Source: Rhizophagus irregularis (taxonomy: Eukaryota > Glomeromycota > Glomeromycetes > Glomerales > Glomeraceae). From it: DNA of 64,000 nt. The notes under the pieces were generated by a model. It saw nothing but the letters and a program-made list of their open reading frames with translations. It searched no databases and had not been told where the DNA came from. The translations under genes were made by a program, and so were the position numbers. Positions 9,891 to 32,446 of the stretch are shown here, one piece after another (position 1 is the first letter of the stretch; the number at the start of each line of letters is the position of its first letter). The stretch covers positions 1,575,001 through 1,639,000 of the forward strand of contig NC_089433.1 of NCBI RefSeq assembly GCF_026210795.1, read 5' to 3'.

Positions 9891-10084
9891 AATAAGTAAA
9901 TCAATCTTCTAATCTAATTAAATTTTAATTATAACACATATAATTTATAAAATATATTTATTAATTAATATATTTTATTAAATCCAATTTTAAATATGTT
10001 GTGAAGCTAAACAAAACATAATATACAAATGATTAACAATATTCAATTAATAAAATTAATAAACAGTAAAAGAAAAATTCAAAA

Positions 10085-10620
10085 TTAATACTATTACAAA
10101 AAATGTAAATTTCTCCATAAGTATTATACTTACACCCATAAATATTAATATGTAGGTAGTTTCGACCTTGCTGAACAATTTTCAATTAATTTAGAAAGTC
10201 GATTTCATTTGACCAAAGAGGTGTAATTACGCTCTGAAGTTGTAAACGGAGAAATAAAAAATTTGAAAGTTAGTACCATTATGAAAGATGCACTTTTCTC
10301 CATAAGTATTATACCCACACTCATGAAAATTAATATATAAGTAGTTTCGACCTTGCTGAACAACTTTCAATTAATTTAGAAAGTCGATTTCATTTGACTG
10401 AAGTGGTGTAATTACGCTCTGAAGCTATAAACGAAAAAGTGAAAAATTTAAAAGTTATTACCATTAAAAAAAATATGCTTTTCTATATAAATATCATACT
10501 TAGCCTTATGAAAATTAAAATACAAGTAGATTTAACTTGCTGAACAAACTTACTTAAGCATAAAAGATAATTTGATATAACCAAAGTGGTAAGTAGTGAA
10601 ATTATATTTTAAAGTAAAAC
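10085..10620. repeat. Tandem repeat, three copies of ~185 bp
   Basis: The phrase around TTCTCCATAAGTATTATAC recurs at 10111, 10296 and (diverged) 10481. Each is followed by the same series of landmarks: TTTCGACCTTGCTGAACAA, AAAGTCGATTTCATTTGAC and GTGTAATTACGCTCTGAAG. Copies 1 and 2 are close; copy 3 is degenerate and truncated. The period is 185 bp. Confidence 0.85.
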
Positions 10621-12040: not shown

Positions 12041-12800
12041 GGGGTGTGCCAGAAATTACGTGATTTAGTGGGTGGGTGGGGGGTCAGGTCCTGCAATCAG
12101 GTATCACAATATACCTTTTATGGTAATAGTATATCTTTTATAGTAAATAATATATAATTTGTTTATTAAGAAGCTTTTTTGCAATTATCTCACCATCTAA
12201 AAGTCCAATTTTAATGAATTTTTTTTTTGTTTTATAAAGTATAAAGAGAGCTATAAAATAAAAAAAAGTTTATGCAAATTGAATTATTGGATAGTAAAAT
12301 AATTGTATTATAATATATATATAATACTATATAGTAATTTATTTATTAAGAAGCTTTTTTGCAATTAACTTACTATGTAGCAGTTCAATTTTAATGAATT
12401 TATTTTTGTTTTGTAAAGCATAAAAAGGTCTACAAAACAAAAAAAAAGTTTATGCAAATTGGATTATTGGATAGTGAAATAATTGTATTATAATATATAT
12501 ATAATATATGATAATTTATTTATTAACAAGTTTTTTTGCAATTATTTCACCATCTAGCAGTCCAATTTCAATGAATTTTTTTTTATTTTATAAAGCATAA
12601 ACAGGGCTACAAAACAAAAAAAAGTTTATGCAAATTGGATTATTAGATAGCAAACTAATTGTATTATAATATATATATTAATATAATATATTATATATTA
12701 TACTGTATGTATTTTTTTAGCCAATCAGAATTCAATCACATGGTGGGTAGGGGGGTCAGGTCTCTAATTGAGCATAATCACGTGATTTATGGCACGCCCC
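12041..12800. mobile_element. TIR element with 3-bp TAA duplication, probably PIF/Harbinger-like (760 bp)
   Basis: The ends are GGGGTGTGCCAGAAATTACG (left) and GGGGCGTGCCATAAATCACG (right, read inward). TAA occurs directly outside each end (12038-12040 and 12801-12803). A second inner motif, a GGTGGG..GGGGTCAGGTC block, is present near both ends in the same orientation. The interior carries three ~180-bp tandem units (12151-12660). There is no transposase. The superfamily call rests only on TAA and the G-rich terminus. Confidence 0.7.
12151..12660. repeat. Three tandem ~180-bp units, each an imperfect hairpin
   Basis: Landmarks AAGCTTTTTTGCAATTA (12170, 12350; third copy diverged at ~12528) and AGTTTATGCAAATTGGATTA recur at a spacing of ~177-180 bp. 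Within each unit the left arm (CAATTATTTCACCATCTAGC) pairs with the right arm (GATAG...AATTG) around an A/T-rich loop. Confidence 0.8.
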
Positions 12801-15373: not shown

Positions 15374-17535
15374 CCGTATTTTGCGGGCCACAGTACCCCC
15401 CTATGCACAGTACCCTACACAAAAATTTTGTCAGATTTTTTAAATACCTGGATATTTCGCACAGAGACTGGAGACATTCAATTTTTAACCTCCAAAATTT
15501 ATAAAATCTCTGGGTACAACACAAGAAAAAAAACATATACACTGTATAATATCCGGGTATTTATTATCAACTTTATTTATTATATATGATATTACAATAT
15601 GCAATACATTATTAAAATCCTTCAATATAGAACATTATTCTTCATCAGAAGTTAGTTCTTGATTTTGATTTCCATCTTCTCCACTACTATTATTACCACC
15701 ATTGTTTTCTTTACTCTTACCTTTATCTGTTTCAATTTCCCATTCATTTTCATAATCATTTTCTTCGGTATATTCATTTTATTCATCATCTGAATTATTT
15801 ATATCTACCTCATCATCATCCTCCGGCATGCCTAGTAACTTATCATAATCAAATAAGTCATTATCTTTCGAACCATCGGTATTTGTTGAAACTCCACAAC
15901 ATTTGAAAGACCTTCTAATAAGATCTTTGTCAACATCATCCCATGATTCCTTGACCCATGTTGCAACTGTTGAATAGGAAGGTTTTTTAATCCTTCCAGC
16001 TGGAGTAAGAGTATGAATGGTAGAAGACATCTAATCATTATATCGTTCTTTAACCTGCAAATTATAAATAAATGTTAACAAAAATCAAAGAATTTATAAA
16101 TAAAACATGCTAAATTGCTAACAATAAAAAATTTTAAAGAATTATATACAATTTTTACCTTAGCTTTAAAGCTTTTGTTAATTGCAACGTCTAATGGTTG
16201 CAATTTAGATGTGCAACCACCTGGAATTACGGCAATATTTGTATTTTTTTCTACCAACCGATTTTTAACAGAACTTACAATATGACCACGAAAAGAATCC
16301 AAAACCAGTAAGGAACGCGAATTACCAAAAGGGTTTCTTGAGGTCCATACAGTTTCAATCCACCATAGCATTTCCTTTTCATTCATCCATCCTTTTTCAT
16401 TAGCTCGTATATGAATACCATGTGGAAAATTTTCTTTTGGCACATTTTTCAATTTAAAAATGCAAACTGCTGGGAGCTTACTGCCATCAGCCATACATGC
16501 AAAGTACAACTGTAAAAGATGAGCGCTCATGGCCTGTAGTACGAATGCTGACTGTTTTTGCGCCCTTATGGTCTATAGTGAAATTACTTGGCAAATCAAA
16601 CCATAGTGGTGTCTCATCCATATTACCTATATATTTTAATGGATAGTCATGCTGAATCCTTCTATATAAAATATAACTCAAAAAACGTTTTGTTTTTCAA
16701 TCAAATCTGATGGTAATTGTTGTGCTACAGTTGTTCTATGACGTTCGCTAAGATTATATCTTCCTAAAAAACCACTTAACCATTTATTTGAAAATTTAAA
16801 TGAAGTGATATTTGGATTATTTGCTAAAAAATCCTGATTTCTAGACAACGTGATAGCTTTTTTGGTGATCATTTTTCGAGTAACAGGATTTTGATTTGTT
16901 CTTCTTTTACAAACCCACGTAAATAAATCATCTTCTATATCTGAATATTTAGCAGATTTACCCGGATGAAGCTTAAGAACATGAGGCGCAAATGCTAATA
17001 ACTTAGCTTTATTGTTATTCCAATCACGCACTTGTTTTGGTTGAATATTAAAATATTTTGCAGTTTCACGTTTACTTCCTCAATTATTTTCCAAATAATG
17101 CACTACCATTAATTTTTCTCTTACATTCCATTGTCGTCTTTTCTTTTGTGATAAGCGATTACGTGCTTTTGGATTTTTTCTGTTTCTGATAACAACCATT
17201 TTTACTTTGAAATAAATTCGCATCACAAATAAAAGACAAAGAAAAAAATACGCGTTTATCATTTTAAAGAATTTATGTATTATACAAAAATAAGGGGAAC
17301 AGATAAACGTGATTTATATGAATCTTTTTTCCTGAAAAAAGTAATTTTCCTTACTTTTTAAATTTAAATATATCCGGATATTATACAAGGTAAGTATCCC
17401 GGGTACTTTATAAATCTTATACCCCCTTATGCACAGTACTTATGCTGTACCCCCCTATATAATATACCCCGGGTATAGCCTCCAACTCCCTAAAATATGC
17501 ATCATACCCGGGGTACTGTGGCCCCTGTTATACGG
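15374..17535 (-). mobile_element. pogo-family DNA transposon (2162 bp), nearly complete
   Basis: Inverted ends: CCGTATTTTGCGGGCCACAG (left) and CCGTATAACAGGGGCCACAG (right, read inward), each continuing into TACCCC; TA flanks both sides (15372-15373 and 17536-17537). It encodes a pogo/CENP-B-type transposase on the minus strand. It is inserted in the first hAT element. Related non-autonomous copies are at 8078-8371 and probably 6344-6550. Confidence 0.92.
15635..17199 (-). pseudogene. pogo transposase with CENP-B-type HTH and DDD domain, lightly damaged
   Basis: The order along the protein is: a basic N-terminal helix-turn-helix (start ATG near 17199; KKRRQWNVREKLMVVHYLE...ETAKYF), a CENP-B-type DNA-binding part (SNKWLSGFLGRYNLSERHR) and a DDE-type nuclease. 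The nuclease retains all three acidic residues in context: MDETPLWFDLP, LLVLDSFRGH and GGCTSKLQPLDVAINKSFK. A C-terminal extension follows (TPAGRIKKPSYSTVATWVK, then an acidic tail to the stop at 15635), after what looks like a short intron. Lesions: an in-frame TGA at 17077-17079, frameshifts near 16681 and 16500, and TAG in place of an expected Trp near 16031. So few lesions suggest a fairly recent copy. Confidence 0.85.
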
Positions 17536-17537
17536 TA

Positions 17538-17862
17538 ATAGCCTAATAGGTGCTATTTCACCTGGTCTTAACATCTAATTGTGATTTGTAATATGTTAAA
17601 TTTTCTATTAAACACAATTTTTGTAATCTATTACACCTTAGAGTTGAGTGTTTAATTTTTTCATTAACTCACGAATTTTAACAATCTCATCATCAATAAT
17701 TTTAATTTCTTGCTGCGCGGCCAAATTTAAAATATGTGCAGAACACCTATAATGTCAAAAAAACTGATCATTAAGTTCTCTTGTAAGTTTTTCTGCAATT
17801 ATTCTTCTACAAACTACCATTGCCGATTCATTATCAGTAGTTAAAGCCAAAGTTTTTTCAAG
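17538..17862 (-). pseudogene. hAT transposase, central part (first hAT element)
   Basis: On the minus strand it reads LEKTLALTTDNESAMVVCRR, then IIAEKLTRELND, a stop, CSAHILNLAAQQEIKIID and IRELMKKLNTQL, a typical hAT core. Its 5' neighbour in the protein is at 30755 on the other side of the 12.9-kb insertion, and its 3' neighbour is left of the pogo element. Confidence 0.85.
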
Positions 17863-18158
17863 TACAGTCAACTCTTTTTATAGTTACTCTGTTATAGTCA
17901 CATTTTACTATATAGTCGCACCAGTTGAATGTTCAAAACACTTTATTATTAAAATCTATCATATATAGTCACAATCTATCTATAGTTACTATCACACCTA
18001 TCCTCAAAAATCTTATATTAAAAAGAACCGTTTATAATTATAGTTATATAAAGAATATATTAAATAACTTGGCATCTAATAATTGTATAAAGATGTGTCA
18101 TAGCTTGTTAGAATCGTCTCACTAAGACGAATCGAATGGTGGTAATTTTATCCTTTTA

Positions 18159-18662
18159 CTGTGCAAACAGTCTTATGACTTTATCTTTTATTTATATTTT
18201 AAATCGAAACTAGAGAGTAGAGACGAACAATATTACAAAATAAGAAAATAAACTAATAAAAAATAAAAAGAATAGCTTCACGATTCATACAAGTAAAGAA
18301 ATCTAAACTAAAATAAATTAAAGAAAAGAAAAACTAAACTATTACAGAATCGCATACTCCAACTTTACCCGAAGGCCAGTGTAAGTCAACTATCCAACAT
18401 CCAAAAATCCAGTCTGTTACCAGAAAGAGATCCTAAGAGGTTGAACTATTAAGCAGCACAGAAAATCCAAGTGCGAGATCTAAGATCCACCCTGAATTAT
18501 AGAAGAGAATATCCAAGAAATCCAGGAATCCTGAGAAACTGACGCCAAAGAAGAGATGTGATGATGAAGAGAAGTATTAGAAGAAGAAGTGATAGAGAGG
18601 CTTCGTGATTTTGAGGAAGCGAAAATCCCTTGAGATTCTTCCCAAGCATAGAAAAGAACAAG
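18159..18662 (-). mobile_element. 5'-truncated LINE copy 1
   Basis: This is the reverse complement of the 3' end of the LINE at 21692-29671, with diverged matches to the end of ORF2 and the 3' UTR (for example the GACTGTTTGC tail). The 3' end lies at the left. It is flanked by TTTTATCCTTTTA at 18146-18158 and 18663-18675. Confidence 0.85.
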
Positions 18663-18675
18663 TTTTATCCTTTTA

Positions 18676-19069
18676 CTATGCAAACAGTCTTATGACTTTA
18701 TTTTTTATTTATATTTTAACTTCAAAAATTTTAAAATCGAACAATATTACAAAAATAAGAAAATAAATTAATAAAAAATAAAAGAGTAGCTTTATGACTC
18801 ATACAAGTAAAGAAATCTAAACTAAAATAAAATTAAAGAAAAGAAAAACTAAACTATTACAGAATCGCATACCCTAACTTTACCCGAAGGCCAGTGTGAG
18901 TCAATTATCCATCATCCAAAAATTCAATATGTTACTAGAAAGAGACCCTAAGAGGTTGAACTGTTAAGCGGTGCAGAAAATCCAAGTGTGAGATCTAAGA
19001 TCCGCCTCGGATTATAGAAGAGGATATCCAAAAAATACAGGAATCCTGAGGAACTGTCGCCAAAGAGAG
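18676..19069 (-). mobile_element. 5'-truncated LINE copy 2
   Basis: This is a second reverse-oriented LINE 3' fragment, similar to copy 1 but truncated at a different 5' point. It is flanked by TTTTATCCTTTTA at 18663-18675 and 19070-19082, so it shares one duplication with copy 1. Confidence 0.85.
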
Positions 19070-19216
19070 TTTTATCCTTTTATGATTACTGGCTGATGAG
19101 TTATTCAACAAAATGTTAAGCATCAGCATTATTATATTTCTTGATTTACGTTTACTGCGTCATTTAACATTTTGCTAAATATCTCGGTACCTAGTAATTG
19201 TAAAAAGACGATTAAT

Positions 19217-19433
19217 GAGTATCAGTGTCATGCAATGGGTATAGAATGAGTAGGCAACGTGTACCTAGCTTCAGATCAGCCTAAAATGGCCCGATAGGGA
19301 ATGTCTTCAAGTGGTGCTGTTACCTGAGGAATTAAGTACTCGGTTATAATGGTATCTATGGAGATGATAGGACACAAACCCGAAATTAGTCTCATAAGAG
19401 GCAATGGGTGGTCTGGCCGTAAACACTAGCAAA
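19217..19433. mobile_element. 217-bp insertion with 17-bp target duplication
   Basis: GTAAAAAGACGATTAAT occurs at 19200-19216 and again at 19434-19450. The inserted 217 bp is much less AT-rich than its surroundings, starts GAGTATCAGTGTCATGCAAT and ends CACTAGCAAA. A paralogous stretch at ~18070-18140 lacks the insert, which supports the reading. The long duplication points to retrotransposition (SINE or processed RNA). I cannot name the source RNA. Confidence 0.7.
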
Positions 19434-19943
19434 GTAAAAAGACGATTAATAGCTTATTGGAATCACCTCATCAAGACGAATCGAATGGTGGTAGGCTTAT
19501 CTCTCCGTGATCAATATCGACGGAGTTACTACTTAAAAACTATTTAATATTTTTTAATTTTGGAAATTGATCTAGTGATTGGATTTCGATATATTTTATA
19601 CCATTAGATTCGTCGCATTAAGACGAATCGAATGGTAGTAAGATCGTCTCTCTAGGATCAATATTGGCAGAATTATTACACAAAAAACCATTAATATTTT
19701 TTAATTTCAGAAATTAATCTAATGATTGGATTTCAATGTATTTTAAACCATTAGAACCGTCTCATCAAGACAAATTAAATGGCGGTAAGATCATCTCTCT
19801 ACAATTAATATTGGAGGAGTTACGATACAATAAAGTTTTAAGTATAATTTTGACTAAAATTATGTTAATTTTTGGCCAGAATTATGATATACTAATATAA
19901 GAAATTTTTTATATAGTCACATCTCTTTATAATCACCAAATAT

Positions 19944-21676
19944 ATGGGTTGGTCACCCTATCTTAGTGGTTAGTCACTGAGACCCTCATTAAGCCTGAGT
20001 ATGGTGAGGTCGCAGGTTCGATTCCTATGACCACGGAAATAAAAGAATTTTACTGCGGACGCTACAACCAATAGTGTGAAGGTACAGGGGATTAGTGTAG
20101 TTGGACTGCATCATGGTGAATTAGTGTGTACGGTTAGGCCGCACATTTCAACTAAGGGTCATGGTGTCCTTCTAACGTTCCCTATGAGGCCATTGGCATG
20201 TGCGCAGTCCTGTCCGGCGAGGTCGCTACTATACCTTGGGAGGAGGCTTCCATGGCCAGGTGGTCACTCTACGATACCGCTTGGGGTCAGTAATGGCTAG
20301 ATGGTCGTTCTAGATGGTAAAGCTGACGGTGCAATGTCTTAGTGGTAGTTTGACCTTCTGTTAGGTCATAGACCAACCAAGGTGTTCGTGCACAGACAGA
20401 TAGCTTGGTGATTGGGTTCCGATTCCATCTCGATGGGCGCAATGGTTGGTGATTCATAGTGGTTCGATACCCACCATAAGGGATGATCCTGGGTAACACC
20501 TACAAGCTTACTGTCCAGGTGGTCACTACAAAGTATACCACTTGGGGATTACAACTGTACTATCGGTGGTGGGTAATCGTGGGCTGTAGTGGCCTTTGAG
20601 TGAGACCTGTTACCTAATATGGTGGTATGGAAGGGTCTAGATGTTTGAAGGTTATCTGACGAAAGTCCTCTGTGACAGTAGTAGTGGTGAGGGGTTTATA
20701 ATAGTAGCCATTACAGTATCATGCAACAGATTAAAGGACGAGTAGGGTGGTGTTCTTCCGATCCAAAGGCCTTCGGGTCCCTGGGGTATGCCTGATTGAT
20801 GGACGTGCTGGATAAGTTGTCTTGGTTAAAAGGTGGCCTGGATGACATCTGGTGGTTCAATGATGGCGAGGATACGAACGACCTACCTCCATAACCTTCA
20901 ATAGAGGGTGCGGAAAGTAGTGGCTATAGTTGTTTCCGAAATTCAATTGGCAAATCCGAAATCCGAAATTACGAAATCGTAATTAATTACGTATTCCGAA
21001 ATTCCGAAATTTGCATAATAGTGCGAAATTGCGAATATCTCGGGATCTAGTGATCAGATTTTGATGATCTTACTACCATTCGATTCGTCTCATCGAGACG
21101 AATCTAATAATATGTGTTTCATATCTATAGCACCGATATTGATGGAGTTAATTTACTATAAACATTTAATGAATTTTTGTGTCGGAGCACGATCTAGTGA
21201 TTAGATTTGAATGAATTTACCACCATTCGATTTGTCATGACGAGACGATTCTAATGGCGGTAAGATCATCTTTCTAGCATTGAAATTAACGGAGCTATTA
21301 TGCTATAAATATTTAAAAGTTATTGGTATCGGAGCGCGATCTAGTGATTGGATTTAAATGATCTTACTACCATTAGAATCGCCTTATCGAGACGAATCAA
21401 ATGGTAGTAAGATCATCCAAAACGGATCACTGGGTGCCGAGTTATTATTTATTAAAGTTTTTATATATAAATCGGCAAAAATTAAGGCTAATTCTGGCCA
21501 AATATTTTCGTAATACGAAATTAATTACGGAGTCCGAAATTAATTACGGAATACGGAGTTTTTCTAATGAATTACCTAATAATTACAGAATTACGTAATT
21601 ACGTATTTCTGTAATACTAAAATAATTTCGGACACAAGTATAGTAGTGGCCACTAAACGTACAATACACTTGTAAA
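19944..21676 (+). mobile_element. SINE-like 1-kb repeat with tRNA-like promoters, copy 1 (interrupted by a MITE)
   Basis: It is flanked by ATAATCACCAAATAT (19929-19943 and 21677-21691). Near its left end is an A-box-like D-arm (TCTTAGTGGTTAGTC, ~19961) and, 50 bp on, a perfect B-box (GGTTCGATTCC, 20015-20025). A second A/B pair lies at ~20333-20350 and ~20414-20424 (one base longer), and a third B-like GGTTCGATACC starts at 20461. There is no open frame of note. GC content is well above the surroundings. The MITE at 20924-21643 splits its right end; without it the repeat is ~1007 bp. The copy at 29687-30698 is very similar. The pol III reading is inference. Confidence 0.75.
20924..21643. mobile_element. 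MITE with CTATA ends and CCGAAATT subterminal repeats (720 bp)
   Basis: The ends are CTATAGTTGTTTCCGAAATT (left) and CTATACTTGTGTCCGAAATT (right, read inward), with a 6-bp direct repeat TAGTGG at 20918-20923 and 21644-21649. The intact second copy of the host repeat (29687-30698) shows the uninterrupted sequence GAAAGTAGTGGCCACTAAAC. The subterminal zones repeat CCGAAATT and TAATTACG. The core holds three units of the GATTCGTCTC/GAGACGAATC palindromic module. Confidence 0.88.
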
Positions 21677-21832
21677 ATAATCACCAAATATGAGGATCAT
21701 CGCAACTCTTTCCTGAAATTTTGAAAATACTAATAAAATTTATTTTTGAAATTTTCGTTCGAAAATTTCTTAGTGCTCGTTCTAAATACTAATATTTTCC
21801 CAGTTGCTTTCCTCTTTACTGAGCTTTAAACT

Positions 21833-23956
21833 ATGACTACACCTCCAACTCCTTCTGTTATTAACCCGGATATTCCACCGCCACCGCGTCCTGTTATTTC
21901 TACTCCCTCTGGAGACTGACCTTTATCTCCCACTAGTACCGCTGGCGCACCTAATAAACGTACACGTACTGTCTCTGATGACGCGATGAATGTTGATATA
22001 ACTTCGCCCTCTGCTCCTGCTCCCTCCCTTATTTCTACCGTTCCTTCTGGTCTTCCTGTCAACAAAGTCCATGTGATTACCTCTCCTCATAATACTACTA
22101 CTCCTGTTGATACTGTTGACGCTTCTATCCATGCTCCCTCCAACACCAGTGGTAAAGGCAAAGCTGTCGCCTTTGATATCCCAGAACGATGACCATCTCC
22201 TGATGGGAATGCTGCTGCTATCAAATCTGCACCTTCTCGTTATCATGCTGCGGCCTACCTACGCGATGCGCCTGACGCGTTCAAAGCTAAATTCACCACC
22301 AATCGCTCCATGTGTGACGAAGTGGATTGTTCCCTCTCCCGTTATTCTTCTTATGGCGCTCGCGCACGATGTGAAGGATCAGGCGATAACAAGAAAATCC
22401 TTGTCTTCTTCAATAATCATGATGATTATACCGATTGTATCACCTCCCCACGTGCTGATCTCCTCGATTTGGCCTTCAGTCATTATTCCCCTGCAGACGT
22501 CAAGCTCAGTGATGAAATGAAGTCTTTGTTCGTCACTGATATTCCACTTTTTCTAACCGAGACTCAAGTCCGTCAGGCATTTTCCAGATATGGCACGGTA
22601 ATCAAGTGCAAATTTACTCCTAGGAAACATTACTATAATGGACATATCCAGTTTTCCTCCGTGGATGCAGTTACCCAATTTAATGATATATGGGCGATCA
22701 TTTGCCTTGGTAATTCTTTACGTGTCTGCCCGGCATCCTTTTCGAAATCCCAATGCGATAGCTGCAGAGAACATGTTGCTATCCTCGCCGGCATCCCAAA
22801 GAATATTAAAGAAGCTGACCTGTTGGAAATTGCTACTCAAGTTAACGCTAAGGCCTTTAACGTTCCTCTATCTATCAGTTCTTACAAGCCTAAACCCTAT
22901 GTATATTTGAATTTCTCCTCATTTGAATCTCTTGAAGCTGCCAAAGAAATGACCGTGGCTTTCCGCGGCAAAGGATTAACATGGCACCCTCCCAATGAAG
23001 CACAAACTTTATGCCACGTTTGTGGGCGTCCTGGTTGTTCTCCTTCTGTATGTAATCTTCGTATCACACAGAAAGTGGATGATCGCCTTAATAAACTTTA
23101 TTCTTGCTTCAATGCTGGCCCTAGACGTGGTTGTCAGGATTCACGCCAATTACGTGAAAATTCCAATTCCCGTTCAAGATCGCGATCCAATTCTAGATCC
23201 CGCAATAATAATTCCTCTTCATCCCGTTCCGACAACAATAACAATAATACTAACACTTCTCGTCCCAATACTTCTCAAAGTACCAACCGGACCAACAATA
23301 ATACTAATAATCACAGGAACAATGAAAATTCTTCTGGCTCTACTCAATCTCCACATAAACCTCATTCTGTCAGTTTTACACCACCTACTTCTCCATCTGA
23401 CAATTATGCCCATACACTTCCTCAACATATTATTGATGAATTAAAAGCGCAGATCAAAGAGATCGCTAAAACCCTACGTACTCTAGAGGAAACTGTCTCT
23501 TGGATGAATGATACTATCACGTCCCATGAGTATAGGCTATCTGAGCTTGAATCAATGATGAATTATGACAACCCTAATGACTCTGATTTGTATCCGCCTC
23601 GTGATGATCATGAAAATCAAAATCATTCTTATGATATAAATGGATGGGATGATGCTCCAACCCAAGACACGAATTCTGAATTCAATCTTCCTCCCCATAC
23701 TTCCCCTTCTCTTATGGACACTTCTCCTGATGCTTCTTTCTCAGTCCTGAATCCTAATTCCGTCTTATCAAGAAGACATGTCCCGTTACCTAACTCCCGA
23801 CCTACTATTATTGCTCCTGATGCTAATACTTCCCGTTTGCAATCGGAAATTTTTAATGTCACCAATACACAAAAGAATCTTTCTGCCCAACTTGGTTCGA
23901 TTATGGAAAAATTGGACTCTTTCTCTCCCTCAAAACCCTCCCCTTTCAATGATTGA
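21833..23956 (+). pseudogene. LINE ORF1 (RRM, zinc knuckle, SR-rich, coiled coil), two premature stops
   Basis: The frame runs from ATG 21833 to TGA 23954-23956, broken by TGA at 21917-21919 and 22190-22192; from 22193 on it is open. Domains: a Pro/Ser/Thr-rich leader; an RRM (LFVTDIPLFLTETQVRQAF, YYNGHIQFSS); a zinc-knuckle-like CHVCGRPGCSPSVCN; a run of Ser/Arg then Ser/Asn; and a short coiled coil (HIIDELKAQIKEIAKTLRTL). The role in the family is to bind element RNA and form an RNP. Both stops are TGA in contexts where CGA (Arg) is a plausible ancestor. Confidence 0.85.
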
Positions 23957-26900
23957 ACACCAATTTATATCGGGTGCTTCACAGGGATCTCACCCCCCTG
24001 ATAGTGCGCTACTTAATATTAATAGTCCTAATAACTGTCCTTCTTCCTTTTCTCCTCTTATTAATTTTGGACAAATCAATGTTAATGGTTTGTGCTCCCC
24101 TATTCGACAATTATATTTGTTAAATTATTTTCTTCATTCTTCTTTTGGCGTTTTATCTTTAAATGATACTCGTCTTACTTCTTCCAGTGCTAAATTTATT
24201 TATCAAACTGAACATTCCCAACATAATTTTAAGTCCTATTAGGCTCCTTCCCCTTCTAATTCACGACCTCATGATGGTGTTGGTCTTTTACTTCGCCATC
24301 CCTTACATAAACATGTTCAGAAGATTGATCCTTGGAAAGGTCGTCTTTTAAAATTAGATCTTTTTTTTCATCAAACTAAAATTTCTATTATTTCAGTTTA
24401 TATTCCTCCTTATCATTCTATTCATTACAAAGAACGTGATGCTATTTCTGCACAACTTAATTTATGGCTTGATAGAGCCCGTTCTAATAATTATCATGTA
24501 GTTATCCTTGGTGATTTTAATGCAGATGAAATTTCACATTCACATCTTCCTCAACATCATTTGAAAATTTTGCGATCACTTTCTTCTCGATATTTTACAG
24601 ATCATCAATCCCATATTTCTTCAATTTCAGGTCCTAGTTCTACCTTTTATCATCAGAATGGTTCTTCAAGACTTGATTATATTTGGTCATCACCTGGATT
24701 TCCTGCTCCCAGTCTTTTCTCTTATGTTGAATCTTGTCCCAAGTTGAATGATAACCAATTTACTGATCACCGTGTCCTCATTGCGGCCTTCGACTTTAAT
24801 TCTTGTTTCGCTACTTTAGCTAAAGCTAGACTAAAACAGAAAAGCGAACAACGCACCATTTTTCTTTACAAGAATTTAAAAGAAGACACTTGGGACACAT
24901 TTTCTAACGAAGTAAATTCACGTCTCGAGTTGTATTTGGCCACACACCATCCTTCCGTATCTTCACTTTCAGCTATTTCCTTAGACAAACTTTGGCACGC
25001 TTTTAAACGCTCTATTCTTGGTGGTGCCATTGATTCTCTTCCATTTCAACATGTATCTAATACTCATCATTATAAATATTCTCCGGAACTTACGATGCTT
25101 ATTGCTATCAACAAATTCTTGGATAGATTATTGTTTAAATTGACCACATCTAGGACTAATCGTCCCGCTCAGATTTCACAAATGATTAATTCTTTACCTA
25201 CACAATTAATTATTTTGAAATCCCTTTAACAGATTATACTATACCTATTTATAGTACTACACCACTTCCTGCTTTTGTCAAATTTTTGCGTTCACAAAAA
25301 GCTTTGGTCTCTGCTTATCTTTCCACGCTATTTCATCAACATCGTGTGGATTCCATTGAATATTATACTGCTCTTAGAGACGAACAATTCTCTATGTCAC
25401 CGGGTTCCTTTATTTCTTCAGCCCTGTCAGTGGAACATCGCTCTATCGTTCTTGATAGAGTCTTGGTTGTAATTGACTCCAAACCCACGTTACTTACCAA
25501 GCCTTCAGACATCAAACAAGCTGCTATCAAACACTTCCAATCGGTTGTTACTCCTCCATTGGTTCAGCATTCTTCTATTGATGAATTTCCTCCACGCTGG
25601 CAAAGAGCATATACTCCTATTTCTGACATTGACTTGTCTTTATATACTTCGGTCTTGTCTCCTATTCTGGAAGAAGAATGGAAGAACACTATCCAGTCTA
25701 TGCCTAATAACAAAGCCTCTGGTCCTTCAAAAATTTCTTATGAAATGCTCAAACATTTAACTGGAGAAGCTTTCAATTTGTCTCTTGTTTTAGCCAATGC
25801 CTGCCTTACTCATGGTGATATTCCTGCGGATTGGTGTGAAGCGCTTGTTTATCCCATCCTGAAGCCTCATGAATTTGATGCACAATTAAAGAATACACGA
25901 CCTATCACTTTATTAGAAACTGTTCGTAAATGTGTGGTCAAGGTCGTTACAACTCGTCTTTCAAAAATCCTAGCTGATAATCAAATACTTCAGGGTGGTA
26001 ATTTTGCTGGATTACCAGGTGGATCCACTGACATTCCTATCAAAATGCTTGATGCGATTATTCATCAACGCCGCTTTGACAAAACTGATGACCAAGAGTT
26101 ATGGATTGTTTCCCAAGACATTTTTAAGGCCTTTGACTCGATTGATTTAAATATGCTCAAGTTGGCTTTAATCCGTTTACATATTCCGCCCTTGTTGATA
26201 AAATTTATTATCAATCTTTTCACAAGACGCAATAATAAAATTATTACTCATTATGGTGATACTTCCGGATATAGAGTTAGAATCGGTATTGATCAGGGTG
26301 AAATTATTTCCCCATTATTATGGGTGATATATTTAGATCCTTTGCTTACTACACTTAATCGAGAAGCTTGTGATCCCTTCCTTTTGAAATCTTCTGCGTT
26401 ATTAGATTATTCCCCGATTGAATATGAACAACATAACCTTCCTGTTTCACATATCACATTTATGGATGACTCTACTTTGATTGCTTCATCTAAACGAGGA
26501 ATTGAAGATCGCCTTTCCATTACAGCTGAATTTTATACTTTAAATAATACTCAAGCTAATTCAGCTAAATATATCTTTCTTTCTTCTGAACAATTCTCTC
26601 AACCTGTAGTGTTTGATCTTTTCCCATCTTCTTTAATCCAAACTTGTACTCTTACTTTAAAAGCTTTAGCTTTATTCAAGTCTTTTCGCTTTTTAGGTGT
26701 CTGGTTTTGCCTTTCAGCTTCTTCTCGCTTTGTTCATGATCAAAGTACTTCCATGGTCAAAGACATGGCTGCTCTACTCAGTCCTAAGAAACTTTTGGCA
26801 CAACATGTGGCTTATCTTTATAACGTTGTCTTACTTCCAAGGCTAGAATTTCGCCTACAAACCACATTATTTGCTGAATCCACCATTAATCGCATAGTTT

Positions 26901-29408
26901 CTCCAATGCTTTCTCTCATTCGACAAAAGGCTGGTTTAGCCTCAGTCACCCCTCTTTCCGCGCTTTTCACATTGTTGCCGTTCTCTATTCAACAAGCATT
27001 TGGTCGATTTCTATCGTCTCATGTGGCTTCATGGCAAAGAATTTTTTCTCACCCCTTACATAAAACCTTTGCCAATTATATGATTACTTATATCCAAAGC
27101 TTCCTAGATTGTGATGCCTGTCCTTCTACTATTGACTTGGAACCATGATCCCATACATTTTCCTTGCGAACACATTCTTTGTTTAATTCTTTATTATTCT
27201 CTTCTCGATTAAATATCACATGGTCTTTATTGTTCCGACCTCCAAGAAAGGATCAACGTTCGGTGATTCCACTCTGGTCTATTTTACCTAAAGAATTATT
27301 CACTTCCATGAAAAATGTTCGAACCAATTTTGGTACTCGTTTCCTTGCCCAACTGGTTTCTCCGTGTGGCTCCAGATTTCTTTCATGGAAAGATTTACGC
27401 TTTCTTAAACGAGTTTCGAACAAAGGATCTGTGCCTACTTGGTTTACTTATTTATTTAATTTAGTTGTTATTTCTAATTCTTCTTCTTTTTTTCTTTTAC
27501 CACAATTTAGAATACCTAATTCCTATACTGTTGCTTCTATCTGTTCTATAGATATTAGTCGAAATTATTTGTTTAATCCACAATGGGCAATTTTTTTTAA
27601 TCGCGATACTAACTCTTTCCTTGTTGGTTGTGTGATCATTACCTATCCTGCTCCGTGAAATGAAGCTCTTATTTCACATTGGATTGCGTCATCTGTCAAT
27701 GACTTATTATCAGAATTCACTGCATGCCAAGGTTGTGCCTCTGCTATTCCATGATCCTCTACTTCCAAAACATTGCTTAAACGATGTCCTTCTAAAAAGT
27801 GCTTCTCTTATGTGCCTTTATCAAGTCTTATCCGTTACCCTACGAAGCCTCGTACTTATATACATGCGGATACTCGTTCGGTCTCACTTTCCGCTTCGTT
27901 AGGCTATGCCAAATCTCTTTCTTTTTGCTCCAGTTCGGCTACCTCCTATGCTTAACCAAGTGTCTAGGATTTCTGATCTCCAACTTCCTTCTTCGGTGTC
28001 TACACTGTATATTGATGGATCCTTCCTTCCTCCTTCTAGTCATCCGACACCTTCGATGGCTTATGCATGGACTGCTATCAATTCTGATGGTTTTATTCTT
28101 GAATCTCATTATAATACCATTCCTTCCCTCTTTCCCTCTGCATTGCGTTCCGAAATTTTTGCCTTATTGCATAAATTGGATTCCCTCCCTCGGTATTCCA
28201 AGATTACTGTCGCTACTGATTGTGCTCAATTAATTTCCTTATGGTCTACGTATGTGGATGCTCCGTTCATTTCTAAAATGCTTAAAGAATTCAATCACCT
28301 TCTATGGTTTTCGGCACGAGCTATTATCTCACAAAAGAATCTGGAAGTTACTTTAATCAAGGTTCCTGCTCACGCTGACGATTCTTTGAATAACCATGTT
28401 GATGACTTAGCGAAAGCTGCTCATACAGACTCACGTCTTTCCTCTATTTCGCCTGCATTCTTGGCTCCTTGCATTTTACAATTTGATTCTTTACCTGTGG
28501 ATATGAATATCCGGAAATTCATTGGAGATATTTTTGACGCCAAGAGTCTTTTGACTCTTGCTTTATTACCAAGATTCAATCTTAATTCCTCTATTTCAGA
28601 TATTGATTGGGCTTGTACCAAATTTTGTTTTAATAATAAACAATTACAATCCTCCCATCGAAATGGCCGGTCTGAATTTTGTGCTTTCCGTATCAAGATT
28701 TTATTGGATATGCTTCCGACACTTACAACTCTTCAAAGATGAAAGCCTCATATCTATGATCCGAGTTGGCTCTGTCCTCAGTGCAACTCCTCTCCTGAGA
28801 CTTTAGACCATTTATGGACTTGTCCGTATATTTTACCTGAATTTAGTCCTTTTAATACTTTTAAAACACTTCTGATGAACCTTAGAACCGTTTGTCTTGG
28901 AAAATTTCTCTCCGTGACTCCTTTGAAATCTTTACCGGACTCCTTCGCTGTGGAATTTACGGCTATGGATTGTTGGAACTGTGACCCTCCTTCAAATTCT
29001 TGTCTGCGACTTGCACGTGGACTTATACCGATATCTCTTACTAGTTTTCTTGAAACACATTTTTCATTATCCACTGTTTGTTCTATTTTTGATACACCTT
29101 TACATGATTTTCATTTTGATCTCTACGTGCAAATCTGGTTGTGCTGTTCTGTTTTCTTTCACCATTGGGAATCAGCTCAAGGCATAACCAATAAAATGAA
29201 ATCGTCCACTATTGGACCTTCTCCTACTTCTCATCCTTCCTCGCAAATTTCTCCTGCAATTTCGACACCTTCCTTGGCGACAGCTTCCTTGGATTCCTGG
29301 GTTTCTTGGGTTTCCTCTTATATAATCCATGGGGGATCTTGGATTTCGCATTTGGATTTTTGGCGCCGCTTAACAGTTCAGCCTCTACTTAGGATTTCTT
29401 TTTGGTAA
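23949..29408 (+). pseudogene. LINE ORF2 (endonuclease - reverse transcriptase - RNase H - zinc motif), multiply broken
   Basis: The start ATG 23949 overlaps the ORF1 stop in ATGATTGA. Domains: APE-type endonuclease from ~24066 (INFGQINVNG, VVILGDFNAD, SRLDYIW, TDHRVL); RT ~25680-26620 (ELWIVSQDIFKAFD, GIDQGEIISPLLW, catalytic FMDDST); RNase H ~27990-28420 (STLYIDGSF, RSEIFALL, VATDCAQL, NNHVDDLAK); C-terminal zinc motif ~28770 (CPQC, then LDHLWTC). Breaks: TAG 24240, a frameshift near 25226, TGA 27146, 27656 and ~27752, a frameshift near 27900, and TGA 28740; the final stop is TAA 29406-29408. The catalytic residues of all three enzymes are kept, so decay is recent relative to divergence. Confidence 0.88.
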
Positions 29409-29686
29409 CGGATTGGATCTTCAGATATGCTGGATAGTTGACTCACACTGGCCTTCGGGTAAAGTTGAGGTATGCGTTTCTGTAATAGTTTAGTTTTCTT
29501 TACTTAATTTTATTTTGTTTAGATTTCTTTACTTGTATGAATCGTGAAGCTAGTTCTTTTTGTTTTTTATGTTTAATTTTCTATATTATATTTGTAATAT
29601 TGTTCGATTTGAGTTTTGTACTTTTCATTTAAAATTTATAATAAAAGATAATGTCATAAGACTGTTTGCTCATAATCACCAAATAT

Positions 29687-30698
29687 AGGGTTGGTCACCC
29701 TATCTTAGTGGTTAGTCACTGAGACCCTCATTAAGCTTGAGTATGGTGAGGTCGCAGGTTCGATTCCTATGACCACGGAAATAAAAAGAATTTTACTGCG
29801 GACGCTACAACCAATAGCGTGAAGGTACAGGGATTAGTGTAGTTGGACTGCATCATGGTGAATTAGTGTGTACGGTTAGGCCGCACATTTCAACTAAGGG
29901 TCATGGTGTCTTTCTAACGTTCCCTAAGAGGTCATTGGTATGTTCAGAGTCCTGTCTTTAAGGTCACTGCATAGTATACCTTAGAGGTGGTGTCCTGTCC
30001 TGGTGGTCATTCTACGATACCACTGGGGGTACGGTTCGCTGTGCTAGATGGTCCCAGTAGATGGTAAAATCGTAGGGTGCAATGTCTTAATGGTAGTTGA
30101 CCTTCTAATAGGTCTTAGACCAACCGTGATGTTCCTGAACAGAACAGATAGCTTGGTGATTGGGTTCGATTCCCTTCTCTGATAGGCCCTGGTTGGTGAT
30201 TTCTGGTGGTTGATATCCACCATAAGGGATGATCCTGGGTAACACCTACAAGCTTACTGTCCAGGTGGTCACTACAAAGTATACCGCTTGGGGATTACAA
30301 CTGTACTATTGGTGGTGTGTAATCGCGGGCTGTAGTGGTCTTTGAGTGAGACCTAGTACCTAATATGGTGGTATGAAAGGGGTCTAGATGTTTGAAGGTT
30401 ATCTGATGAAAGTCCTCCGTGACAGTAGTAGTGGTGAGGGGTTTATAATAGTAGCCATTACAGTATCATGCAACGGATTAAAGGACGAGTAAGGTGGTGT
30501 TCTTCCGATCCAAAGGCCTTCGGGTCCCTGGGGTATGCCTGATTATGGACGTGCTGGATAAGTTGTCTTGGTTAATAAAGGTGGCCTTGATGACATCTAG
30601 TGGTTCAATGATGGTGAGGATACGAACGACCTACCTCCATAACCTTCAATAGAGGGTGCGGAAAGTAGTGGCCACTAAACGTACAATACACTTGTAAA
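29687..30698 (+). mobile_element. SINE-like 1-kb repeat with tRNA-like promoters, copy 2 (intact, 1012 bp)
   Basis: It is flanked by ATAATCACCAAATAT (29672-29686 and 30699-30713). The first A/B pair is at 29701-29716 and 29757-29767 (GGTTCGATTCC). The second is TGTCTTAATGGTAGTTGA at ~30083, with a CCTTCTAATAGG anticodon-arm-like hairpin and GGTTCGATTCC at 30163-30173. It contains several internal hairpins of the form GGTGGTCACT...AGTATACC. It is much more GC-rich than its surroundings and has no protein frame. It is unusually long for a SINE. Confidence 0.78.
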
Positions 30699-30754
30699 AT
30701 AATCACCAAATATGGACTGTCCCAAATGTGTGACTATAAAGAAAGTTGACTGTA

Positions 30755-31120
30755 GATTAAATTCTGTTAAAACTGATTTTATTGCATTTGCTATATTGTT
30801 TCCAGTATGATGGGTAGTAAAAGAAATAATATCTAATAAAAAGTTTTTTAGGTTCCAATTATTGTCAACATAATGAATTGTCAGACCAAGAAATACATCA
30901 TTATTACATGTAGAAGTCTACATATCTGTTGTTAAAGATAATTTGCCCAGAATTGCATTTAGATCTTGTATATTTTTACGTTTTTCTTTAAAATAATCAA
31001 CTACCAAAGTTTTTACTGTTTTTTTCATCTGGAATTTGATATTGAAAATCAAATTTATTGATCATTATTTTAAATCGCAAATTTTTAACAAATCATTTGT
31101 GAAATTATGCTTGTATATCG
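30755..31120 (-). pseudogene. hAT transposase, N-proximal part (first hAT element)
   Basis: On the minus strand it reads KTLVVDYFKEKRKNIQDL, KLSLTTDM, a stop where Trp is expected, NNDVFLGLTIHYVDNNW, NLKNFLLDIISFTTHHTG and ANAIKSVLTEFNL, the conserved block before the hAT catalytic core. It runs directly into the fragment at 17862 if the 12.9-kb insertion is removed. Upstream it decays rapidly near 31120. Confidence 0.82.
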
Positions 31121-31910
31121 GCGGATTTGTTTACTTTTGCATAATGCTAAATTTTGAATGATTTTCATAATATCCGTCACCCAAAACTGGTTTATAATGT
31201 CATGAAATCACCTGATTGAATATCACTTGACTAAATAATAAGTCAAGTGAAAATCTACATTTGTGAAACTTAAATTATTTAACGTAAAATAGACACAAAA
31301 AAACCCATTTCGTTAACAAAAAACCCATTTCTCACCTGCATAGTATTTTTAATGTGTATTATTAGAAAGTAAGTATGTTTTAATAAAACAAAAAGTAAAA
31401 TAAAAATTTATATAGACACGATAGCTATGAATATTTATAAAAGTATTCTAAGACTCATTTAATATTTAAAAAATTTTTTTTTTTATAATAACTTTCATAA
31501 AATTGTCCATTTTTTGCATTTTTCAAAACATATTATTAATTCTTATTTATCTTGCTGTAGACAAAATAGGAACTTTATATCCAAACAAATTGTAAGCATA
31601 TGTATTATTGATTTTTACACAATAAAGATTTAGAAGCTATTGTATAAAGTGAGATTCCACAACAGATATTATCAGTATTGCTAAGAATAATATTTATTGT
31701 ATTTTGGCTTAAAAGAATTATTTATTAAATTTATCAAATTATTGTATTAATAAAACCAAATAAAATTTTTTTAATGTTTATCCCAGGTCCTACTGCGCCA
31801 TATGTAATAATTTGTGTAACAAAAGTACCTTAAAATAAACATGTTAATTAGAGGGTGAACAAATCCGCCGATATGGTGCAAAGAAAATAATTTCACACAT
31901 AAATCAATTC
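31091..31910. repeat. Possible MITE bounded by imperfect inverted repeats (~0.8 kb)
   Basis: ATATCGGCGGATTTGTTTAC at 31117-31136 is inverted at ~31854-31875 (AACAAATCCGCCGATAT), and the outer sequences TGTGAAATTAT / ATAATTTCACA also pair. The arms are imperfect over ~45 bp with a small gap. No target duplication was found, so the exact ends are unclear. Confidence 0.4.
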
Positions 31911-32446
31911 TCTAAAATATTTCAAACTTTTTTTTTACAACATTTAGCGAAATAGCATGATATGTATTAATATATATATTTCTTTGAAGTTATGGGCTAT
32001 TTCTATTATATTTTAAGCTGAATATATTTATATATCATTATCAGATTTTAGTATTAGTAAACGATTAGGCAAAAAAAGGTATATGCATTATTCTCAATAT
32101 CTTTATATTTGTTGAGATCTTTAATGCATATTCCACATACCTTTATTCTCTAATATAAAGGTTTAATATAAAAGTCTGTTGTATACTTTTCTGCTTTAAA
32201 TAAATTCAAGCTCAAAAAAAACATAAATGAAACATAACAAAGACTTGTATATAGAATTTATGACTATTCTTAGCTATCAGTGCCTATTTTTTTGATTACC
32301 ATATAATAATCCTGTAATGTATATTTTGTAATAATTGACAATATAATTGCTATTATAATTTAATATATATTAAAATACCATATTACAATGAAATGTAAAA
32401 AAACAATAATTTTGTAATATACTATGACAATTATCCTTTTATATTA
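31911..32446. other. AT-rich DNA, nothing recognisable
   Basis: I see no gene or bounded repeat. A short inverted pair around GGTATATGCATTATTCTC / AATGCATATTCCACATACC (~32075-32145) could form a hairpin of unknown meaning. Confidence 0.45.

Follow-up and report, generated by a model that had tools for sequence, protein, structure and literature searches.

The 64,000-nt stretch of the Rhizophagus irregularis genome analysed here (assembly GCF_026210795.1, contig NC_089433.1, positions 1,575,001-1,639,000; hereafter the window) contains an array of a short interspersed element (SINE-A), a long interspersed element (LINE-A) and a second SINE-A, bounded and joined by copies of the 15-mer ATAATCACCAAATAT (T1). 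The analysis indicates with high confidence that LINE-A and SINE-A both insert at T1 within a high-copy DNA transposon flanked by TA, and that the T1 duplicated by an insertion is used again, which builds the arrays. A first-pass annotation made from the letters alone had put forward a first insertion that duplicated the target, with later insertions landing on the duplicates. It was essentially right; the host transposon and a second LINE/SINE pair lay beyond its view.

Distribution and Nature of T1

The window contains four exact T1 copies, all on the + strand and located where the first-pass annotation had placed them: 19929-19943 (host/SINE-A junction), 21677-21691 (SINE-A/LINE-A), 29672-29686 (LINE-A/SINE-A) and 30699-30713 (SINE-A/host right end). 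No further match was found in the window at up to two mismatches. Shuffled windows, in which matches at up to two mismatches rather than exact copies were counted, gave a mean of 1.15 matches, and this test alone is weak because 3 of 100 shuffles reached four. The genome (146,748,485 bases, 32 contigs) provided the strong test: T1 occurs exactly 646 times (345 + 301), against once (1 + 0) for the reversed word.

The flanks of 73 T1 copies (69 in 60 fetched stretches and 4 in the window) showed that T1 is embedded in a repeated host sequence, ...ATATAGTCACATCTCTTT-T1-GGACTGTCCCAAATGTGTGACTATAAAGAGAGTTGACTGTA, whose copies diverge beyond these letters. The host left flank seen at the first T1 copy is the same at 47 fetched sites, and the right flank seen at the fourth is the same at 45. 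Many host copies hold T1 but neither LINE nor SINE. A 27-mer in which T1 is extended by the neighbouring 5 and 7 letters of the host (up to two mismatches) identified 401 insert-free sites, and the control identified none. The T1 copies are target DNA, not element sequence.

The occupancy of T1 was scored by BLAST in the first-listed 100 of the 646 copies, a non-random sample located entirely on contigs C1-C5. All 100 left flanks and 96 of the right flanks were host, LINE or SINE. By eye, the other four right flanks were two truncated SINEs, one diverged host and one insert ending as a LINE. The BLAST scoring gave 54 empty sites, 16 with host on the left and an insert on the right, 15 with the reverse, and 15 between two inserts. 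One site scored as host on the left and unknown on the right (L121) reads by eye as a diverged host without an insert, the 55th empty site, and the count of occupied hosts is 16 or 15 depending on it. These counts correspond to approximately 30 insertions in approximately 15 hosts. Every assignable flank at the 100 sites showed the same orientation.

LINE-A

LINE-A occupies 21692-29671 (+ strand) and is full length (7,980 bp) with broken frames. It was delimited from its open reading frames (ORFs), Pfam matches and its relative L087 (86.8% identity over 8,010 bp). The predicted domains are an RRM in the ORF1 region (22193-23956; PF00076, E = 3.2e-7), an apurinic/apyrimidinic (AP) endonuclease of the APE type, part of it in frame and interrupted in this copy (24243-25229; PF03372, 1e-9; PF14529, 8.4e-10), a reverse transcriptase (RT) (25190-27148; PF00078, 2.8e-15) and an RNase H (27903-28742; PF00075, 3.7e-9), all on the + strand. 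The endonuclease frame of L087 spans positions 2-218 of the 225 of PF03372. The LINE-A RT matched the R2 protein (6.7e-18) and the LINE-1 ORF2 protein (4.1e-13) in the PDB.

The exact LINE-A 3′ end, AAGACTGTTTGCTC, has 115 copies in the genome, and all of them lie at T1 (100 at exact T1, 14 at T1 with one mismatch and 1 shifted by 6 nt), so that the specificity is almost absolute. After T1, 60 of the 115 continue into the host right end and 55 into other letters, many of which are LINE or SINE starts. Other lineages were sought by the LINE 3′ end AAGACTGTTTGC with altered letters behind it (any but A in the first position, any but C in the second and a purine in the last); this pattern yielded two matches, both at T1, against six for the reversed pattern. 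Among the LINE and SINE inserts, six 5′-truncated copies of approximately 31, 67, 89, 101, 197 and 469 bp bear T1 on both sides, which demonstrates a 15-bp target duplication. Such 5′ truncation with flanking T1 is as target-primed reverse transcription predicts. LINE-A combines RT and AP-endonuclease-like domains with insertion at a single sequence, target duplication and 5′ truncation, and is classified as a site-specific APE-type LINE (non-LTR retrotransposon).

SINE-A

BLAST of the two window copies of SINE-A (19944-21676 and 29687-30698, both + strand) against each other showed 90.8% identity over 995 bp plus the last 35 bp. The second copy is 1,012 bp long. The order of a SINE-like repeat, a LINE and a SINE-like repeat had been read correctly in the first-pass annotation; the first repeat, however, measures 1.73 kb rather than 1 kb because of an inner insert. 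This insert of approximately 717 bp (20925-21641, read by eye against the second copy) has imperfect inverted ends, TATAGTTGTTTCCGAAATT and TATACTTGTGTCCGAAATT, and a flanking 9-bp duplication, AGTAGTGGC (20916-20924 and 21642-21650). We take it to be similar to Mutator-like elements. It also bears motifs resembling the 147-bp repeats of the host.

The SINE-A end CAATACACTTGTAAA was sampled only where A or G stands at +17, and all 36 sampled ends lie at T1 (32 exact, 3 with one mismatch and 1 with two; control 0). Exact end words miss mutated copies, such as SINE ends with CAAAACACTTGTAAA. A 13-mer SINE-end word was rejected as too short: 6 of its 26 matches were followed by T1 and 20 were not, with 13 matches for the reversed control. 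These 20 matches, known only by the letters that follow them, are counted neither as SINE ends nor otherwise. A LINE carrying the SINE-A tail was also considered, and none was recognised in the DNA ahead of 20 fetched tails, which for 2 of them is unassignable.

SINE-A is short, non-coding (no ORF of at least 100 aa is listed inside 19944-21676 or 29687-30698) and retroposed, as its truncations and target duplications show, and these are the features of a SINE. The description of the repeat as tRNA-like found little support. No tRNA match was obtained at E ≤ 1 for 17800-31000, and ARAGORN found none in the window. The SINE head alone gave a tRNA-Sec match of 15.4 bits (E = 0.82), below the cut-off of 47, and a B-box-like GGTTCGATTCC is visible; a tRNA origin of the head is weakly suggested.

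Re-Use of the Duplicated Target

Two natural T1 variants trace the history of single arrays. The variant ATAATCAACAAATAT has 17 copies in the genome, 8 of which are all 8 known junctions of an array on contig C12. This array contains seven insertions in the order host, LINE, four SINEs, LINE, LINE, host. The other 9 copies were all fetched, and by eye all lie in unrelated DNA. The variant ATAATCACCAAATAA has 10 genome copies, and 5 of them lie at junctions of an array on C5 that starts at the host flank. Three of the five copies outside this array were fetched, of which two lie in unrelated DNA and one at a host/SINE junction on C15, where it may be T1 with its last letter lost.

Repeated duplication of one target would place a variant at successive junctions of one array in this way. 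The arrays with their own T1 variants show that the target duplication of the LINE is itself re-used as a target, and the insertion history proposed at first is supported. It also follows from the arrays that a target can be re-used without at least one of its host flanks.

Host DNA Transposon

The host with all its insertions extends from 17863 to 30754 (+ strand), has TA at both ends and was delimited by terminal inverted repeats (TIRs) and two relatives, L061 and L062. The 5′ TIR, TACAGTCAACTC, lies at 17863 (21 of 22 letters), and the host right end with the 3′ TIR lies at 30714-30754 (+ strand). Ends beginning with TACAGTCAACTC are present in the window host, L061 and L062. T1 is situated near the 3′ end, where the outer end is an imperfect TIR, and the opposite end starts with TACAGTCAACTCCCTCTATAGTCAC. 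The copy L062, which has no LINE or SINE, is approximately 1,111 bp long including two TAs and contains internal repeats of approximately 147 bp, which a tandem-repeat search also found in the window copy. Joining the outer flanks with one TA gave a 90-codon frame open across the junction, which supports host ends at 17863 and 30754. TIRs and TA duplication are features of the Tc1/mariner type, and the anatomy of the host is that of a putative non-autonomous Tc1/mariner- or pogo-type transposon.

The host interrupts an open frame (17401-17864 and 30755-32000) that presumably encodes a hAT-type transposase. A piece of a pogo/Tc5-type transposase gene (16678-17079, - strand; HTH_Tnp_Tc5, CENP-B_N) is located just outside the host. 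Tandem repeats with units of approximately 185 and 180 bp occur at 10073-10547 and 12146-12699 of the window.

Alternative Explanations

Several observations, collected in this section, weigh against insertion and re-use at T1 as read above. The first group concerns the helper of SINE-A. No match of SINE-A to LINE-A or to LINE-B, the sister LINE described below, was found at E ≤ 0.5, and no 3′ sequence is common to them; SINE-A lacks the 3′ tail in common with a helper LINE that marks SINEs of the stringent type. RNA folds of the tails were not better than those of shuffles. With no common sequence and unremarkable folds, the proposal that LINE-A moves SINE-A rests on the identical target, orientation and duplication and on the mixed arrays.

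SINE-A might instead be moved by a different, unseen LINE that has the same target and the tail of the SINE. The SINE-A tail matches neither LINE, one class of SINEs has a 3′ end in common with the helper LINE according to a passage of PMC3414825, and 2 of 20 fetched SINE-A tails (L067 and L078) are preceded by unassignable DNA without a LINE-A match. On the other side, the remaining 18 tails are preceded by SINE body (truncated in two), and the SINE tails pair with sites, tail A with T1 and tail B mostly with the second site T2, as the two LINEs do. We consider an unseen LINE unlikely, and infer that the LINE-A enzymes move SINE-A in trans.

The second group concerns irregular junctions. For the C5 array, no right end was located. 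Six additional bases separate one LINE-A end from T1. A truncated SINE-A (L070, C8:1606680-1607040) has T1 on its right side only; its host left flank ends approximately 40 bp before T1, with unexplained bases in between. A dense array of degenerate SINE-A on C16 (L077, C16:1687700-1690180) has unlike T1 forms at successive junctions, including ATAATTACCAAATAT and ATAATCGCTAAATAT. One junction on C15 (L109) is one letter off T1, with an exact T1 2 kb further on. The form ATAATTACCAAATAT is also present at LINE ends of C13, C19 and C20. Later mutation of single junctions could explain the non-uniform T1 on C16, C15 and these three contigs.

The third group concerns the clumping of insertions. 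Among the 100 sampled sites, 15-16 hosts were occupied, whereas 21.3 (standard deviation 2.1) or 21.6 (standard deviation 2.2) were expected if every T1, old or new, is an equal target. The clumping exceeds this model with P = 0.011 for 16 hosts and P = 0.003 for 15. A model that hits hosts regardless of their content predicts 24.5-25.1 occupied hosts. Fewer hosts were occupied than under either model; duplicates therefore serve as targets no less readily than first sites do. Local preference, a later spread of empty hosts or a degree of recombination may also contribute to the excess clumping. The count at 100 sites replaces a genome-wide estimate of clumping that was based on a rough 84 occupied hosts.

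Unequal crossing-over or segmental duplication of element-plus-T1 units, rather than new insertions, would give such clumping as well. It would also fit head-to-tail units with identical spacers, such as the four SINE units of approximately 1.0 kb in the C12 array, whose closest pair (96% alike) is formed by the first two, which are neighbours. However, the four units differ from one another by 4-7.5% (92.5-96% alike), and the fourth resembles the first SINE of the window on C5 (95.6%) more than the other three units (92.5-92.9%). Among the adjacent LINE pairs that were compared, a single one ranks with the six closest, and the others are near or not far from the median. The likeness of the C12 SINEs and of the LINE pairs speaks against an origin of the arrays mainly by simple tandem duplication. 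Arrays also mix LINE, SINE and differently truncated copies, and their 5′ junctions bear differing extra bases (e.g., G, GG and ATG). On the few arrays compared, growth by crossing-over or segmental duplication is rated very improbable.

It is scarcely credible that the host captured the array once and spread as a composite. The host is itself dispersed and high-copy, but 54 of 100 T1 sites are empty by BLAST and a 55th by eye, and the occupied hosts vary in content. Arrays elsewhere differ in members and truncation points, contrary to the composite unit that the first-pass annotation had named as a refutation. The same SINE-LINE-SINE order was found in one other array of the 100 sites (C1:3274748), in which the first SINE is cut to 469 bp, whereas that of the window is full length with its inner insert.

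The notion that the 15-mer is an end consensus of the LINE and SINE, the other refutation named in the first-pass annotation and suggested by its adjoining every exact LINE-A 3′ end and every sampled SINE-A 3′ end, is refuted by the 401 empty sites, by T1 upstream of 5′-truncated copies as well as downstream, and by variants common along arrays.

Second and Third Target Sites

The same host contains a second site, T2 (TTTTATCCTTTTA), whose orientation is opposite to that of T1. In the window, 18146-19082 comprises two 5′-truncated tails of LINE-B and three T2 copies on the - strand. The T2 copies are located at 18146-18158 (TAAAAGGATAAAA on the - strand), 18663-18675 and 19070-19082. The LINE-B copy between the first two (18159-18662, 3′ end AAGACTGTTTGCACAG) is 83% identical to the LINE-A tail over 405 bp, and the copy between the last two (18676-19069) is 81% identical over 403 bp.

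Genome-wide, the LINE-B end AAGACTGTTTGCA[CT]AG gave 92 matches. They were followed by exact AAAAGGATAAAA in 77 cases, with one mismatch in 8, two in 6 and four in 1, with T2 allowed anywhere in the next 19 letters; 91 of the 92 sampled ends are thus at T2 with up to two mismatches. SINE-B has the head of SINE-A and another tail (GTAAACA[CT]TAGCAAAG). Of its 73 matches, 67 lie at T2 with up to two mismatches, counted in the same way, and 5 of the other 6 lie at sites like GTAAAAAGACGATTTA. Both samples are confined to ends that have a purine at a given downstream position (+19 for LINE-B). In two host copies inspected, T2 is followed by TACCACC. The host letters TACCA or TACTA follow in 38 of 92 LINE-B and 36 of 73 SINE-B ends, and AGGG, a start seen in SINE copies, follows in 23 LINE-B and 15 SINE-B ends.

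In comparison with LINE-A, the LINE-B copy L086 shows 68-69% identity over the endonuclease and 73% over the longest RT stretch (67-82% over others); the values are 53-55% for the larger part of the RNase H region and 35-43% for ORF1. Pfam detected its endonuclease and RT (PF00078, PF03372 and PF14529); the RRM was found only below the cut-off, and the counterpart of RNase H had no Pfam match at E ≤ 0.01. SINE-B matched LINE-B over 17 bp only (E = 0.2). A stretch on C1 (L063, C1:1409200-1413250) contains tandem SINE-B in one host, with T2 copies 997, 998, 1006 and 87 bp apart, and this host has an empty T1 (L013).

A third site, T3 (GTAAAAAGACGATTAAT), occurs at 19200-19216 and 19434-19450 (+ strand). 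Between these copies lies a 5′-truncated SINE-C (19217-19433, + strand) with the tail ...GTAAACACTAGCAAA, identified by BLAST to the SINE-C tail stretch of L061 and by T3 on both sides. The host copy L062 holds sequence close to all three sites.

Proposed Mechanism and Significance

The strand-by-strand course of insertion can be proposed as follows. A nick made by the LINE-A enzyme in the bottom strand, at the 5′ edge of T1, would prime reverse transcription and so give the fixed orientation and the precise 3′ end. The top strand would be cut 15 bp further on, so that T1 would be duplicated around the insert. Each insertion then yields two usable targets, on which later LINE-A or SINE-A copies land to form tandem arrays, and the SINE-LINE-SINE array of the window is one case of such stacking at T1. 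LINE-B and SINE-B do likewise at T2, in the opposite orientation in the same host.

We lean slightly towards a broader interpretation, in which one host serves as a landing pad with two, perhaps three, self-renewing sites, each with its own LINE-SINE pair. The SINE would shift its site by exchanging its tail and keeping its head, and the sister LINEs would have shifted theirs with a change of approximately 30% in the endonuclease protein. The niche would never fill, because every insertion adds a target.

Natural T1 variants common along single arrays show that the target duplication of a LINE itself becomes a target again. With their different sites, the sister LINEs form a small comparable set of endonucleases for probing how LINEs choose their targets. 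The tail swap of the SINE raises the question of how a SINE without the tail of the LINE is recognised. A target that renews itself inside another transposon also points to a way in which elements of this kind might persist in the genome.

Comparison with Known Systems

Tx1L in Xenopus is a LINE of the Tx1 clade that targets a DNA transposon, and tandem copies of R1 are known. Like Tx1L, LINE-A has an APE-type endonuclease and inserts specifically at a single site of a DNA transposon. It is set apart from Tx1L by its companion SINE, by the tandem arrays that arise when the duplicated target is used again, and by the sister pair at another site.

For R. irregularis, LINE/L1-Tx1, L1-R1, LINE/I and SINE families (PMC11075540) and LINE R1 and Tc1 (PMC8647823) have been reported; neither article uses the phrase "target site" in its main text. 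The titles and abstracts of the open-licence literature, searched for this system in R. irregularis, tandem re-use and site-specific SINEs, contained no recognised account of it.

Passages of PMC4640811 count transposons among the known targets of site-specific LINEs and assign the LINEs of the APE type to the Tx1 and R1 clades. The same passages describe Utopia LINEs, which target U2 genes and of which one family is occasionally tandem. The T1 system is similar to Utopia in its narrow target and in tandem insertion. Utopia, however, has a restriction-like endonuclease and an RNA-gene target, whereas the endonuclease predicted here is of the APE type, and these passages mention no SINE partner of Utopia.

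In Drosophila rDNA, hybrid short internally deleted elements (SIDEs) lie at the R1 site with 14-bp target duplications, as described in part of PMC3414825. The T1 system is similar to R1 and its R2/R1 SIDEs in that short non-autonomous partners occupy the site of a LINE. The SIDEs described there are derived from R1/R2 ends and have 28S rDNA as their target, whereas the target here is a transposon and SINE-A has no detectable sequence in common with the LINE.

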